The position numbers and the translations under genes were made by a program. Of a stretch of 64,000 bases of DNA, positions 9,586-18,999 are shown one piece after another; positions within the stretch are counted from its first letter, which is position 1, and every line of letters starts with the position of its first letter. The DNA is from Iphinoe sp. HA4291-MV1. Lineage in GTDB: Bacteria; Cyanobacteriota; Cyanobacteriia; Cyanobacteriales; Nostocaceae. The stretch is from NCBI GenBank assembly GCA_019359415.1, contig JAHHHH010000001.1, forward strand, positions 62,001-126,000. The letters run 5' to 3'. Below the pieces are notes generated by a model, which made no database searches, had not been told where the DNA came from, and saw nothing but the letters and a program-made list of their open reading frames with translations.

Positions 9586-9618
9586 AGAAACCCGGTTTCT
9601 CAAAGAAACCGGGTTTCT
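9586..9618. repeat. AGAAACCCGGTTTCT hairpin repeat, copy 1
   Basis: Perfect 15-bp arms (9586-9600 and 9604-9618) with a 3-nt loop. The same hairpin is found at 18784-18816 and a variant at 17015-17047. The copy here provides the last codons of the adjacent antitoxin-like gene. Confidence 0.85.
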
Positions 9619-12302: not shown

Positions 12303-15300
12303 ATGCTGAAAACTCCCCGCAACACCAGAAAGCTGTCTTTCTTTCTCCTTTTCCCTTTCACTCTTTTACTTATTTTCCTCCTCTCCCTCTCCTGGGTGAA
12401 TGCTAAAGAACCAGCCAAACCAAAGCCGCAACCGTGGCATATTAACGGCATAGTCGCTGCTCTCGACGATGGCTATGACAAAGTGAAGCAATATGCTTTG
12501 GAAAAATTAGCAGAATATAAGCCGCAAGACTTGAAAAACGTGGTGAAGAAACCGGAGGATATTGCTCAGAAAGCTGCCAACATCCTCAAAGATGAAAAAG
12601 TTGACTCCTCCGTTCGTTCACGTGCGGCAGTGGCATTGGGCAACCTGGGGCAAGCGGCGGCGAAGTACGTGCCTGACATCCTCAACATCCTCAAAGATGA
12701 AAAAGTTGACTCCAACGTTCGTTATGGTGCGGCAAAAGCATTGGGCAACCTAGGGCAAGCGGCGGCGAAGTACGTGCCTGACATCGCCAACATCCTCAAA
12801 GATGAAAAAGTTGACTCCTACCTTCGTTATGGTGCGGCAAAAGCATTGGGCAACCTGGGGCAAGCGGCGGCGAAGTACGTGCCTGACATCGCCAACATCC
12901 TCAAAGATGAAAAAGTTGACTCCTACCTTCGTTCCGGTGCGGCAGTGGCATTGGGCAACCTGGGGCAAGCGGCGGCGAAGTACGTGCCTGACATCGCCAA
13001 CATCCTCAAAGATGAAAAAGTTGACTCCAACGTTCGTTATGGTGCGGCAAAAGCATTGGGCAACCTGGGGCAAGCGGCGGCGAAGTACGTGCCTGACATC
13101 CTCAACTTCCTCAAAGATGAAAAAGTTAACTACTTCGTTCGTTCACGTGCGGCAGTGGCATTGGGCAACCTGGGGCAAGCAGCGGCGAAGTACGTGCCTG
13201 ACATCCTCAACATCCTCAAAGATGAAAAAGTTGACTCCTCCGTTCGTTCCGGTGCGGCAGAGGCATTGGGCAATCTGGGGGAAGCAGCGGCGAAGTACGT
13301 GCCTGACATCCTCAACATCCTCAAAGATGAAAAAGTTCACTCCTACGTTCGTTCCGGTGCGGCAGAGGCATTGGGCAACCTGGGGGAAGCGGCGGCGAAG
13401 TACGTGCCTGACATCGCCAACATCCTCAAAGATGAAAAAGTTGACTCCTCCGTTCGTTATGGTGCGGCAGTGGCATTGGGCAACCTGGGGCAAGCGGCGG
13501 CGAAGTACGTGCCTGACATCCTCAACTTCCTCAAAGATGAAAAAGTTGACTCCAAGGTTCGTTCCGGTGCGGCAGTGGCATTGGGCAACCTGGGGCAAGC
13601 GGCGGCGAAGTACGTGCCTGACATCCTCAACTTCCTCAAAGATGAAAAAGTTGACTCCAAGGTTCGTTCCGGTGCGGCAGTGGCATTGGGCAACCTGGGG
13701 CAAGCGGCGGCGAAGTACGTGCCTGACATCCTCAACTTCCTCAAAGATGAAAAAGTTGACTCCAAGGTTCGTTCCGGTGCGGCAGAGGCATTGGGCAACC
13801 TGGGGCAAGCGGCGGCGAAGTACGTGCCTGACATCCTCAACTTCCTCAAAGATGAAAAAGTTGACCTCAACGTTCGTTCCGGTGCGGCAGTGGCATTGGG
13901 CAACCTGGGGCAAGCGGCGGCGAAGTACGTGCCTGACATCCTTAACTTCCTCAAAGATGAAAAAGTTAACTACTTCGTTCGTTCCGGTGCGGCAGAAGCA
14001 TTGGGCAATGTTAAACAACTGAAGTTGGAAGAGGTTGTTGTCGTTCTGAATTCTGTCCATGAGCCAAATCAGGAAGAATTTAAACAGTGGCGGTTTCTCA
14101 CCTATTTTCTGAGTGGCGGCACTGATGAGGTGAAAACGCTGCTGACATGGGTTGGCAAACCTGATAAAAAAGCAATTCCCAATCAACTTAAATACGATGA
14201 AGGCAAGAAAACGCTAAAAGTCTTTCTCCAAGTCTGGGAACCTACTAAGGAACTGGGGGAATTAAGAGAAGATTTAGCACAGCAGATTGCATTAGTTGCC
14301 AGAAAAGTTTCCTGGAAACCACAAGACATCACTTTACTTCAAAATCATTACAAAAACCTCAAAGCCATCAACTCCACTCACGCTGATACAGTGAAGTCGG
14401 TGATAGATAATCTAGAATTTTGGAAGTACTTTTTCCAAGCACGAAACACCATCCTCATTCATGCTACCTTTTGGCTTGCCCTCATTTTTGCTTACCCTAA
14501 ATTTCCCCAAGTCCAAGCAATCTTTTTCTGGAACCCGTGGGTACGGCGTATTCTGGGTGTGGGCTACGTCGGCTTTCTCCTCACTTGGGTTCCCTTCCTG
14601 CGGCGCAAACTGTTTGAGCCGTTTAAGTTTTCGCTGCTAGCAGATGCGGGATTAGATAATTTCAACGAAAAAACCTATTTCCCAGAATCTCTTGTGAAGC
14701 TTCCGCCGAGTAGCACCCCACCCCTAGCCCCTCCCCGCAAGCGAGGAGAGGAAGAAAACCAAAATAACATACCACCAGAGATTCAACCAATTACTCAAGC
14801 ACTACCCAATACCAACGGGCAAATTGTCTTAGTAGGAAATTCTGGCTTAGGCAAGTCAATGTTTCTGCGCCATCTGGTGAAAACCTCTCAGCAAATTGTC
14901 GTCTACTTACCCGCCCAAAAATGTGAAAAAGGTGTCATTGAAGCCATTCAAGCAAAGCTGCACGGACAAGCACAAGATGCAGAGTTTTTAAAAAGCCTGA
15001 TTTACAGTGGCGCAATAGATATCTGCATCGATGGACTCAATGAAGTCACGGCTGACACGCGGGCAAAAATCACCCAGTTTGTCGAGTGCTATTTCCGGGG
15101 TAACATCATTATGACTACCCAGCCGTTAGAATGGATACCTCCTTCAACAGCAAAGATGTATGAATTGCAGTCTCTGGAACGCCAGCAAATTGAGCAATTT
15201 CTAATTTCGCGTCAGTTGCGACTCCCCAAAGATGCTAAAGTTCAAGGTGATGAATATCAGCAAGCTTGCAGGAACTACTTAGCAGAAGCTCTCAACACAC

Positions 15301-15890
15301 AGCAATCTCGCGAAGAGTTAGACGCTGCACAGAGAATTCTTTCCAACCCAATGGATTTATCGCTGGTTGCTCTTATGCTATCACAAGGTAAATATCCCAA
15401 TCTGTTTTACCTGCAAGAACAGCAGTATAAATTGATGGCAACAGAATACCTGCGAGAATGGAATCAGGAATTTCCATTAAAGAAATTTTCCGAAGCAGTG
15501 TATGAAATGCGACTGAACGATAAACAAGCGCTCCCGCCGGATGAATTTTATCAAGCTTTAGTCTCTTTAGAAGACGAGAAATATAAAATGGTAGTCAGCC
15601 GTCAATGGCAAGATGAAAAAGGAGAAGCAAAGAAAGAATGGTACTTCCGCCACGACAAAATCATGGATTTCTTCCTTGTACAGAACTTTATTGGCGGAGG
15701 TGAAGACGTAGAAGGACGTTTAATTGACCACATGGGTGACCCGCGTTTTCGCGGAGTTTACTTTTTACTCGCAACCTTGCTTCCTTTGGATGCTGCTAAA
15801 GAACTGCGGGAGAAGTTGATACAATATGCGGCGGATACTAAAGATCATACGGTGAGTGATACGTTCGTGCAGTTGTTGCGGTCTAGATGA
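12303..15890 (+). CDS. Membrane-anchored HEAT-repeat / NACHT-like P-loop NTPase
   Basis: 1195 residues. An N-terminal hydrophobic segment (about 12-34) is a signal peptide or anchor. Residues about 93-570 are 35-residue HEAT repeats, encoded by 14 almost identical 105-bp units. Two further hydrophobic segments (about 717-735 and 750-766) precede a P-loop domain with Walker A GNSGLGKS (845-852) and the NACHT-style Walker B IDICIDGLNE (Asp910-Glu914), then IIMTTQPLEW as a sensor-like strand. The order suggests HEAT repeats outside the cytoplasm, or looped, and a cytoplasmic NTPase. Related STAND/NACHT proteins act as ligand-triggered switches in signalling or immunity. The role of this one is unknown. 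No effector domain was recognised, and the neighbours (DUF4058, VapBC) give no clear partner. Confidence 0.8.
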   Translation: MLKTPRNTRKLSFFLLFPFTLLLIFLLSLSWVNAKEPAKPKPQPWHINGIVAALDDGYDKVKQYALEKLAEYKPQDLKNVVKKPEDIAQKAANILKDEKVDSSVRSRAAVALGNLGQAAAKYVPDILNILKDEKVDSNVRYGAAKALGNLGQAAAKYVPDIANILKDEKVDSYLRYGAAKALGNLGQAAAKYVPDIANILKDEKVDSYLRSGAAVALGNLGQAAAKYVPDIANILKDEKVDSNVRYGAAKALGNLGQAAAKYVPDILNFLKDEKVNYFVRSRAAVALGNLGQAAAKYVPDILNILKDEKVDSSVRSGAAEALGNLGEAAAKYVPDILNILKDEKVHSYVRSGAAEALGNLGEAAAKYVPDIANILKDEKVDSSVRYGAAVALGNLGQAAAKYVPDILNFLKDEKVDSKVRSGAAVALGNLGQAAAKYVPDILNFLKDEKVDSKVRSGAAVALGNLGQAAAKYVPDILNFLKDEKVDSKVRSGAAEALGNLGQAAAKYVPDILNFLKDEKVDLNVRSGAAVALGNLGQAAAKYVPDILNFLKDEKVNYFVRSGAAEALGNVKQLKLEEVVVVLNSVHEPNQEEFKQWRFLTYFLSGGTDEVKTLLTWVGKPDKKAIPNQLKYDEGKKTLKVFLQVWEPTKELGELREDLAQQIALVARKVSWKPQDITLLQNHYKNLKAINSTHADTVKSVIDNLEFWKYFFQARNTILIHATFWLALIFAYPKFPQVQAIFFWNPWVRRILGVGYVGFLLTWVPFLRRKLFEPFKFSLLADAGLDNFNEKTYFPESLVKLPPSSTPPLAPPRKRGEEENQNNIPPEIQPITQALPNTNGQIVLVGNSGLGKSMFLRHLVKTSQQIVVYLPAQKCEKGVIEAIQAKLHGQAQDAEFLKSLIYSGAIDICIDGLNEVTADTRAKITQFVECYFRGNIIMTTQPLEWIPPSTAKMYELQSLERQQIEQFLISRQLRLPKDAKVQGDEYQQACRNYLAEALNTQQSREELDAAQRILSNPMDLSLVALMLSQGKYPNLFYLQEQQYKLMATEYLREWNQEFPLKKFSEAVYEMRLNDKQALPPDEFYQALVSLEDEKYKMVVSRQWQDEKGEAKKEWYFRHDKIMDFFLVQNFIGGGEDVEGRLIDHMGDPRFRGVYFLLATLLPLDAAKELREKLIQYAADTKDHTVSDTFVQLLRSR
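12581..14020. repeat. 105-bp near-identical tandem repeats (14 units, last partial)
   Basis: Units start every 105 bp at 12581, 12686, 12791 and so on to 13946. Changes fall mostly in a short variable window (codons after GTTGAC/GTTAAC) and in a few Ala/Gln/Glu positions. Third-codon positions are also nearly invariant, which points to recent expansion or gene conversion rather than old duplication. Confidence 0.95.
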
Positions 15891-16923: not shown

Positions 16924-16977
16924 TGCTCTGTTCCTTGTTCCTCGTCCCGCCTCAATTTTCTTATAGCGCGTTCTATA

Positions 16978-17073
16978 GCAATCCGGAATCATTTGTAAGA
17001 AAATACTGAGCCTTAGAAACCCGGTATCTCCCAGATACCGGGTTTCTTTATCTCACGAATGATTTAGGATTGC
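16978..17073. mobile_element. MITE with GCAATCC termini and TA-type target, copy 1
   Basis: Ends GCAATCCGGAATCATT (left) and GCAATCCTAAATCATT (right, minus strand), matching at about 19 of 23 positions. TATA lies on both sides, as expected for IS630/mariner-type TA duplication. An internal hairpin, 15-bp arms at 17015-17029 and 17033-17047, is a variant of the AGAAACCCGG hairpin. It lies 55 bp upstream of the DUF4058 start. Confidence 0.65.
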
Positions 17074-17111
17074 TATATCACAACAAAATTTTGCTACAAT
17101 GCATTCAACTC

Positions 17112-17312
17112 ATTGAAGAGGAAAGACCCCTCTGAGAGGTTCACCTGAAAAGGAAATCTGCAATCAGATGATAAACTGATTTGGATAGGCATTAGTAAGG
17201 TGAAACGTATCTGCAACGAAACTGCAGTAATTGAGTGCCACATTCTTGTGCTAACAAGCAAAAAAATCGAGTCTGTGGAAGCTGGATGGCACCGCCGTTG
17301 ATATGGTTCCAG
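17112..17312 (+). promoter_or_regulatory. Candidate T-box leader for the aspartyl-tRNA synthetase gene
   Basis: Immediately upstream of the synthetase gene is a fold with T-box antiterminator layout. Helix A1 is CTGGA (17282-17286) with TCCAG (17308-17312), the 7-nt bulge is TGGCACC (17287-17293), and helix A2 is GCC (17294-17296) with GGT (17305-17307). The bulge fits the T-box consensus TGGNACC. Its variable base C would pair with discriminator G73, the base of tRNA-Asp and tRNA-Asn. Further upstream, GAAGAGGAAAG and CTGAGAGG (17115-17140) resemble stem I landmarks. I could not place a specifier codon with confidence. No terminator T-run follows, so control might be translational. Confidence 0.5.
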
Positions 17313-17349
17313 TATTTGAACAATAGTAGTTGTTTACGAACCGTAGCAT

Positions 17350-18648
17350 ATGGTGAGTCCCACACGTACACTTATCGGCTCCCTTCATTCATCACTTTCA
17401 GAACCAGTTCTCATTCGGGGATGGATATATCGTCTGCGAGAACTCGCTAAAACAACGTTTATTATCGTTAAGGACTGTAGCGGCGAAGTTCAATGTGTTG
17501 CTGATTCAGCTTCAGTTCGAGAAATGTCTCTCAAGCTGGATGAGCCAGTTGAAATCACAGGTAAGGTCAAACCTGACTCTCGCTCACGCAGTGGTTTTGA
17601 GATAGAAGTTATTGATATTTCTATATTAAATCGCGTTACTCATCTTCTTCCTTTTAATTCTTGTTCAGACATTTCAGAAATTGGAATTGACACTATTTTG
17701 GCTTATCGTCCGCTCTCACTTCGTAATGATAGCGTTGGCGATATCTTCAGGATACAAGCTGCAATTCTACATAACTTCCGTCAATTCCTGAGACAGCAAC
17801 ATTTCACCGAGATAGTGACATCCAAAATCGTCTCCAGCGGAACGGAAGGAGGAACAAATCTCTTTGAAATTAAGTACTTTGAACGCTGTGCATACCTTGC
17901 TCAAAGTCCTCAGTTTTATAAAGAGCAAGGCGTAGCGGGATTGGAGAGGGTGTTTGAAACAGGTCACGTTTACCGTGCTGAACCGCACGCGAGCAGTCGT
18001 CACCTCACAGAATATTACTCGCTAGACTTGGAAATAGGATTTATACATGATTCTGAAGAAGTTATTCAGTTGGAGAAAGAACTCCTTTCCTTTGTATTCG
18101 AGCGACTTAACCAAGAGTACGCCGATGTACTCAAAAGGTATCGAAACAAGCCTCTTCCGGAGATAACTAACGCCCCAATATGGGAATTTGAAGAATGTCT
18201 TGAGCGACTGCATCTGCACTTTGGTCGTACTGACCTTGTAGACGACTTAGACCCAGAAGCGGAACGCCAGCTTTGTCAACTCGTAGAATCAGAAACTGGA
18301 ATTCCAGCTGTTTTTGTTATAGGTTACCCACTTTCAGCACGACCCTTCTACACACATCATCGGGGTAACAATGGGGCTTCGCAAAGCTTTGACTTTCTGT
18401 TTGAGGGCGTTGAAATTACGACGGGTGGACAAAGACTCCATAAACGAGAGGATTTAGAACAAGCACTCACAAACCGTGGTATTGCTCCAGCTTCTTTTGA
18501 AAATCATCTTCAGATGTTTGAAATGGGTATGCCTCCACATGGTGGGTTGGCTATTGGTTTGGAAAGACTGACTACACGAATATTGTATCTTCCCAACGTG
18601 AGGCAAGCAACGCTTTACCCACGAGATAGGTATCGGATATCTCCGTAG
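17350..18648 (+). CDS. Aspartyl-tRNA synthetase, archaeal/eukaryotic type
   Basis: 432 residues, a class IIb synthetase of the short archaeal type and not the roughly 590-residue bacterial AspRS with its GAD insertion. The N-terminal OB fold (about 18-95: VLIRGWIYRLREL) binds the anticodon. LAQSPQFYKEQ, motif 2 around FETGHVYRAEPHASSRHLTEY and motif 3 GGLAIGLERLTTRIL complete the catalytic domain. LAQSPQ and DLEIGF favour AspRS over AsnRS. Such enzymes often charge both tRNA-Asp and tRNA-Asn. It is probably a horizontally acquired extra copy beside the housekeeping enzyme. The leader resembles a T-box. No strong Shine-Dalgarno is seen before the ATG. Confidence 0.85.
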   Translation: MVSPTRTLIGSLHSSLSEPVLIRGWIYRLRELAKTTFIIVKDCSGEVQCVADSASVREMSLKLDEPVEITGKVKPDSRSRSGFEIEVIDISILNRVTHLLPFNSCSDISEIGIDTILAYRPLSLRNDSVGDIFRIQAAILHNFRQFLRQQHFTEIVTSKIVSSGTEGGTNLFEIKYFERCAYLAQSPQFYKEQGVAGLERVFETGHVYRAEPHASSRHLTEYYSLDLEIGFIHDSEEVIQLEKELLSFVFERLNQEYADVLKRYRNKPLPEITNAPIWEFEECLERLHLHFGRTDLVDDLDPEAERQLCQLVESETGIPAVFVIGYPLSARPFYTHHRGNNGASQSFDFLFEGVEITTGGQRLHKREDLEQALTNRGIAPASFENHLQMFEMGMPPHGGLAIGLERLTTRILYLPNVRQATLYPRDRYRISP

Positions 18649-18671
18649 ATAGGGAACAGGGAACAAAACAA

Positions 18672-18699: not shown

Positions 18700-18757
18700 A
18701 AAAAGAATAATTCCTGTTCCCTGTCCTTATGAAGCGATTTACAACTCAAATAGGACT

Positions 18758-18849
18758 CAATACTGCTCGGATAAGCAAAAATTAGAAACCCGGTTTCTTT
18801 AAGAAACCGGGTTTCTGGCACCTCAACTATTCTTAACCGAGCAGTATTG
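18758..18849. mobile_element. MITE with CAATAC-type terminal repeats, copy 2
   Basis: 92 bp. Ends CAATACTGCTCGGATAAG (18758-18775) and, on the minus strand, CAATACTGCTCGGTTAAG (18832-18849), 17 of 18 identical. It is flanked by the perfect 10-bp direct repeat AAATAGGACT (18748-18757 and 18850-18859). The interior is dominated by the AGAAACCCGGTTTCT hairpin (18784-18798 and 18802-18816). Confidence 0.85.
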
Positions 18850-18999
18850 AAATAGGACTGCTATATTAAGTTTTATAAAAAAATACATAATGACTGGCTC
18901 AATACGTGGAGTCACAATGACAGGATCATAATTCGAGCTTACAACGTACCTTGGTTCACCAAACAAAATCCGATTATCAAAGGACTGGGAACAAGGAAA

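Follow-up and report, generated by a model that had tools for sequence, protein, structure and literature searches.

Is the leader that precedes an aspartyl-tRNA synthetase gene, aspS2, in the cyanobacterium Iphinoe sp. HA4291-MV1 a T-box, and if so, which tRNA would it sense and at what level would it act? The gene lies in a stretch of 64,000 nucleotides, analysed here as a whole (the window). As far as the available parts of two surveys extend, T-boxes were found in none of 13 cyanobacterial genomes (PMC2494555) and were confined to four phyla plus Geobacter (PMC3766115), and neither reports an ultrashort aspartate T-box in cyanobacteria. The word 'Cyanobacteria' does not occur in the accessible portion of the main text of PMC7778990, and we found no report of a cyanobacterial T-box in the open literature, Brasilonema and the Nostocales included; a report that we have not seen may exist. 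By computation we established the family resemblance of the leader, its anatomy, conservation and covariation, its match to a host tRNA and the redundancy of aspS2. We judge the leader to be a genuine T-box. We assign a probability of about 0.72 to the fuller reading, in which a T-box with an ultrashort Stem I senses tRNA-Asp and acts as a translational switch on a spare aspS2.

The Rfam T-box model RF00230 aligns end to end (model positions 1-219) with the leader, scoring 48.7 bits with an E of 1.2e-9 in a search of 601 bases against 4227 families, well above background but under the curated gathering score of 93 bits. The leader is therefore overlooked in a routine scan, and the gathering-level Rfam scan of the window reported zero T-boxes. 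Within the 7.36-Mb host genome, 17104-17314 is the sole RF00230 match at E <= 0.001, with 150 of the 282 first-look candidates scored. This extent somewhat exceeds the 17112-17312 of the preliminary description, which had proposed a T-box-like fold upstream of an AspRS gene in a cyanobacterial host. All three parts of that proposal are borne out, the fold being present at 17282-17312 as CUGGA, the bulge UGGCACC, and GCCGU ... AUGGU followed by UCCAG. When folding energy is the sole measure, Stem II (17138-17207) stands out with a z of -2.43; Stem I (z -1.26, with 25 of 200 shuffles equally good) and the segment 17205-17275 (z +0.52) do not. The coordinates of the features are collected in the table.

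Table. Features of the aspS2 locus, in positions of the window.
Feature	Position	Strand	Parts and basis
Conserved cassette comprising the -10 region of the promoter, the T-box leader and aspS2	17080..18652	+	found likewise in Brasilonema sp. UFV-L1, between unrelated flanks
Putative extended -10 promoter TGCTACAAT	17092..17100	+	inferred from sequence; TAAAAT in nearest relative
T-box aptamer and discriminator, full extent	17104..17314	+	RF00230 48.7 bits, E 1.2e-9
Ultrashort Stem I	17109..17138	+	base 17109-17111/17136-17138, kink-turn 17112-17117/17133-17135, helix 17118-17121/17129-17132; RF00230 alignment
Specifier GAC (Asp)	17125..17127	+	in terminal loop AAAGACC 17122-17128; standard specifier frame
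Stem II	17140..17204	+	17140-17146/17198-17204; S-turn GAA 17147-17149 and AGUA 17194-17197
Stem IIA/B pseudoknot	17206..17227	+	IIA 17206-17208/17216-17218; IIB 17211-17215/17223-17227
GAGUG (RRRNG), Stem III, AA	17233..17280	+	Stem III 17238-17242/17274-17278; AA 17279-17280
Antisequestrator	17281..17313	+	A1 17281-17286/17308-17313; T-box bulge UGGCACC 17287-17293; A2 17294-17298/17303-17307
Predicted start-codon sequestrator (OFF)	17287..17362	+	17287-17300/17347-17362, 17302-17309/17338-17345, inner hairpin 17317-17324/17329-17336; prediction
aspS2, archaeal-type aspartyl-tRNA synthetase, 432 aa	17350..18648	+	NF003483 469.4 bits (cut-off 353); PF00152, PF01336

Stem I is reduced to a kink-turn, the four-base-pair helix GAGG/CCUC and the loop AAAGACC, and only five bases span the 74 positions that the RF00230 model devotes to the middle of this stem. 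The same ultrashort form, with the specifier in the terminal loop and without the distal part that binds the tRNA elbow, was found in all 13 homologous leaders of the family. In the part of PMC7583486 available to us, short Stem I elements likewise carry the specifier in the apical loop, and most translational T-boxes have an intermediate or ultrashort Stem I. The GAC triplet, the specifier that the preliminary description had left unassigned, occupies positions 2-4 counted from the 3' end of the loop, which is the frame of first choice in the accessible text of PMC7778990, where GAC has a share of 0.94 among aspartate specifiers. With this spacing, six isoleucine T-boxes of the same cyanobacterial family read AUC, and four aspartate T-boxes of other phyla read GAC. 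Across the 13 leaders the loop reads AAAGACC in 11 and ACAGACC in two. On its 3' side the specifier is followed by C, which counts against the proposed T-box reading, as this base is a purine in the structures covered by the available part of the review PMC7583486. The RRRNG-Stem III-AA motif, as defined in the seen portion of PMC7778990, follows the pseudoknot. The putative promoter upstream of the leader was not reported by a simple -35/-10 scan.

Of the 39 matches in the host tRNA inventory, 30 were read as loci with ARAGORN. The tRNA-Asp among them has the anticodon GTC, the discriminator G and no encoded CCA, so that the specifier GAC agrees with both this tRNA and the downstream AspRS gene. 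The bulge UGGC (17287-17290) is complementary to a GCCA end carrying G73, in keeping with the match to a G73 tRNA suggested by the preliminary description. Nine of the 13 leaders have UGGU instead, with which G73 could pair only as G-U, and G73 itself was verified in the window's genome alone.

Within the family, 13 of the 218 genomes carry aspS2; they represent six of the 56 genera, with 75-93% identity for those other than the window itself. Of the eight genomes of the window's genus, two carry the gene. Among 386 genomes sampled from the phylum it was found in two, the second at 42% identity (L003 in genome G044); at the latter locus neither Rfam nor R1, a model built from the 13 leaders, reported a T-box, and a TGGNAC core is absent within 500 bases. 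An alignment was possible for each of the 13 family leaders, and the counts that follow rest on these 13; of the 11 new leaders, five were reported by Rfam at E <= 1 and the remaining six were included by alignment. R1 recovered the same 13 of the 218 family genomes, as it must by construction, together with one partial match in G501 (22.9 bits) that is probably due to chance, and among the 386 phylum genomes, under strict filters, it recovered the window's genome only. Scanning of 386 and of 41 cyanobacterial genomes with Rfam cannot be counted as negative evidence, as the stricter filters used there missed the window's own element; the same holds for a further Rfam scan that missed L004, the leader of which is nearly identical to that of the window.

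Comparison of the 13 leaders reveals conservation of the T-box parts and double-sided change in the helices. The GAC specifier, the G-A letters of the kink-turn, the S-turn, the RRRNG-Stem III-AA motif and UGGYACC are each present in 13 of 13. In 494 pair cells (38 pairs in 13 leaders), 98.2% hold standard pairs, compared with 38-48% when the partners are slid. Double-sided changes affect seven of the 38 pairs (a number reached by 3 of 500 shuffles) and 18 cells (0 of 500); the count of further pair types shows no excess over shuffles (166 of 500). The seven pairs fall in Stem I (two of its four helix pairs), Stem II (three of seven), IIB and A2. The IIA pairs are invariant; in IIB one pair is changed on both sides in three leaders, and the first pair is unpaired in six. 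A1 and A2 are paired in 100% of cells. Homologous leaders lacking the bulge or the paired stems, which would have spoken against a T-box, were not encountered among the 13.

The leader could switch through its strand 17287-17309, which forms either the A1/A2 antisequestrator or a duplex with 17338-17362 that includes the AUG. For the window, the OFF fold is computed at -27.3 kcal/mol versus -18.7 for the ON fold (sequence ending 15 bases beyond the AUG), or -22.9 when more is included, and the folding of 17283-17365 has a z of -2.61, with 3 of 200 shuffles as good. A sequestrator over the start codon is predicted in seven of the 13 leaders, the seven outside the genus labelled g168, without a Shine-Dalgarno sequence read. 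In all seven, OFF is more stable than ON by 1.7 to 16.1 kcal/mol, and the antisequestrator strand is the partner of the arm 5' of the AUG, with the register unchanged. Of 1000 shuffles each, 28, 44, 31, 508, 6, 12 and 136 did as well as the duplex; L072 (508) is thus no better than shuffles, and L075 (136) is weak. The helix is absent from the six g168 leaders, for which 561 to 712 of 1000 shuffles are as good; here no fold betters ON in four, and in the other two ON trails the best fold by 0.3 and 0.9 kcal/mol. The g168 start AUGGUAC is able to pair with UGGUACC. More generally, in the 10 of 13 leaders with an AUGGUR start, the third letter of the valine codon matches the bulge letter as C-G (two), U-A (seven) or U-G (one), although these matches represent few independent events, and the pairing of the T-box with AUGGU is unavailable in L071, L074 and L075, which have different starts. 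It counts against the sequestration model that, in the isolated ON fold, the AUG is still in a small hairpin or otherwise paired. No Shine-Dalgarno sequence was read 5' of 17350, and such a sequence was rejected as the sequestered target; an intrinsic terminator was likewise rejected, as the + strand holds no terminator-like site in 16950-17500. Modelled folds of this kind make control of aspS2 at the translational level most likely.

The same tRNA-Asp sensor might instead govern transcription, through a terminator, possibly Rho-dependent, or through a hairpin with a U-run of the type seen in g168. In the six leaders of that genus (L076-L081), where the expression platform is a different one, a hairpin AACCC/GGGUU of 5 bp (-4.9 to -5.3 kcal/mol) stands just 5' of the AUG and is followed by UUUU. 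However, this weak hairpin lies clear of the antiterminator strand, no terminator-like site was seen on the + strand of the window's own leader, and the partial text of PMC7583486 links an ultrashort Stem I to translational T-boxes; we therefore regard transcriptional control as unlikely. A different ligand has also to be considered, because G73 is common to the tRNA-Asp and tRNA-Asn of the host, so that the specifier alone distinguishes the two. A T-box answering tRNA-Asn, or both tRNAs, would suit a gene annotated as aspartate--tRNA(Asn) ligase, a function that the NCBIfam name of NF003483 fits. With GAC in 13 of 13 leaders, AAC absent from the loop and an AsnRS encoded in the window's genome, this reading is very improbable; the expected ligand is tRNA-Asp, and tRNA-Asn was set aside on the specifier. 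Finally, the patchy occurrence of aspS2, in the family as in the genus, and the low RF00230 score would suit a leader acquired by transfer that has since become a relic with no regulatory role. Against this stand the paired cells and double-sided changes, Stem I included, across leaders from six genera, and the invariance of GAC and the S-turn, and we give the relic almost no credence.

Under the translational reading with tRNA-Asp as the ligand, we infer tRNA binding, switching and a physiological role for the leader as follows. GAC would pair with the anticodon GUC of tRNA-Asp, and the Stem I kink-turn, the Stem II S-turn and the IIA/B pseudoknot would hold this pairing. Charging would be tested by pairing of UGGC with the free GCCA end, such that bound uncharged tRNA-Asp keeps the A1/A2 antisequestrator in place. 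When tRNA-Asp is charged or absent, the strand would pair with 17338 to 17362, the AUG would be buried and aspS2 would go untranslated. Control of translation by uncharged tRNA-Asp would thus make AspRS2 a spare synthetase, produced when the housekeeping AspRS charges too little tRNA-Asp.

The gene content of the host fits a spare enzyme. The product of aspS2 is identified by NF003483, in agreement with the AspRS named in the preliminary description, and scores under the cut-off of TIGR00458; its closest solved relative is 1n9w, aspartyl-tRNA synthetase 2, presumably from Thermus thermophilus. Since the host genome also encodes a bacterial AspRS (862.4 bits against a cut-off of 443) and an AsnRS (689.9 bits against 414), aspS2 is an extra copy. 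In all 12 other carriers there is a PF00152 gene of 595-616 aa, and also one of 469-529 aa, both named by length only. Comparison with the nearest relative (dN 0.041, dS 0.324) indicates purifying selection on aspS2. As microcin C-like compounds inhibit AspRS (PMC9239234, in the part available), it is reasonable to hypothesise that AspRS2 may serve as a backup against inhibitors. In its full form this hypothesis is tentative: aspS2 and its leader would be a portable single-gene inducible backup, in which failure of the housekeeping AspRS, through starvation or an AspRS inhibitor such as a microcin C-like compound, is registered by the T-box and translation of a divergent AspRS2, possibly insensitive to the inhibitor, is released, with one strand both reading the tRNA end and covering the start codon.

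The window and its nearest relative are similar from near 17080 to directly past the stop codon, with 235 of 246 leader positions identical. Neighbourhoods were compared in 20-kb stretches from 13 genomes, using ORFs of at least 80 aa (those of more than 100 aa were printed) and BLASTP at E <= 1e-10. Neighbours are common in place solely within a genus (g168; L090 and L091); between genera only a few scattered matches were found, the strongest (76%) joining different places in L088 and L093 and the others at 25-43%. A conserved gene neighbourhood was accordingly rejected as an explanation of aspS2. The conserved block amid differing neighbours means that leader and gene stay together while their context changes. 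To this extent the earlier suggestion that the leader travelled with the gene holds, together with the unrelated flanks; transfer itself is unproven. In the protein tree, the 13 family AspRS2 proteins stand apart from 10 homologues of other origin with a support of 1.000, and this small outgroup sample identifies no donor. We also observed palindromic MITE-like elements with the core AGAAACCCGGTTTCT flanking the cassette at 16974-17077 and 18757-18850, and present at 9586-9618; half-site matches number seven in the window versus 0.16 expected. Elsewhere in the window, 12303-15890 encodes a 1195-aa protein that consists largely of HEAT repeats very like one another and includes an AAA-like part.

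Other T-boxes provide points of comparison. A related IleRS is encoded in six of the 218 family genomes, each time behind a full-length AUC T-box (97.6-106.3 bits). These isoleucine T-boxes, a second T-box class in cyanobacteria (L006:1501-1800 and L083-L087), precede a MupA-related IleRS; a 472-aa IleRS fragment in G404 matches the models of ileS and of the mupirocin-resistant MupA and MupB, each under its cut-off. They share with the window's leader the host family and the position before a synthetase gene, and differ from it in their full Stem I, their specifier and their scores, all six above the Rfam cut-off. Among plasmid records with aspS2 homologues, 20 were found and 11 examined, nine with Rfam (L060-L068) and two with R1 only (L069, L070); the R1 search of these loci also failed to report the four T-boxes known there. 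Those four, revealed by Rfam in the nine loci searched, belong to Paraclostridium, Acetoanaerobium, Nonomuraea and Streptantibioticus (Clostridia and Actinomycetota), and in L063 an unconfirmed TGGCACCG lies 68 bases ahead of the match. Like the window's leader, the four stand before a homologous synthetase gene, have GAC with the same spacing and carry a UGGNAC bulge; unlike it, they have a full-length Stem I, and their genes are 37.8-45.0% identical to that of the window. The strong T-box of the Paraclostridium plasmid (L060:3594-3819, 119.5 bits, GAC) stands before such an aspS2 homologue.

In architecture, the window's leader resembles the class II ileS T-boxes of Actinobacteria, known from Nocardia and Mycobacterium structures (PMC7583486 and PMC10651847, in the parts available), which have a short Stem I with an apical-loop specifier, a kink-turn, an S-turn, a IIA/B pseudoknot and an antisequestrator. 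It differs from them in its aspartate specifier, its cyanobacterial host and the lack of a Shine-Dalgarno sequence read, and in its predicted target, the start codon itself, with which the T-box strand would pair. The genome search of TBDB for class II elements was confined to Actinobacteria, according to the accessible part of PMC7778990, and the Rfam cut-off excludes this leader, so more such elements may be overlooked.

Two T-box classes occur here within one cyanobacterial family, and the aspartate element suggests that a minimal Stem I is special neither to isoleucine nor to Actinobacteria. The 13 naturally covarying leaders form a set for structure work, and the leader makes a T-box-driven, inducible backup synthetase in a photosynthetic bacterium a testable idea.
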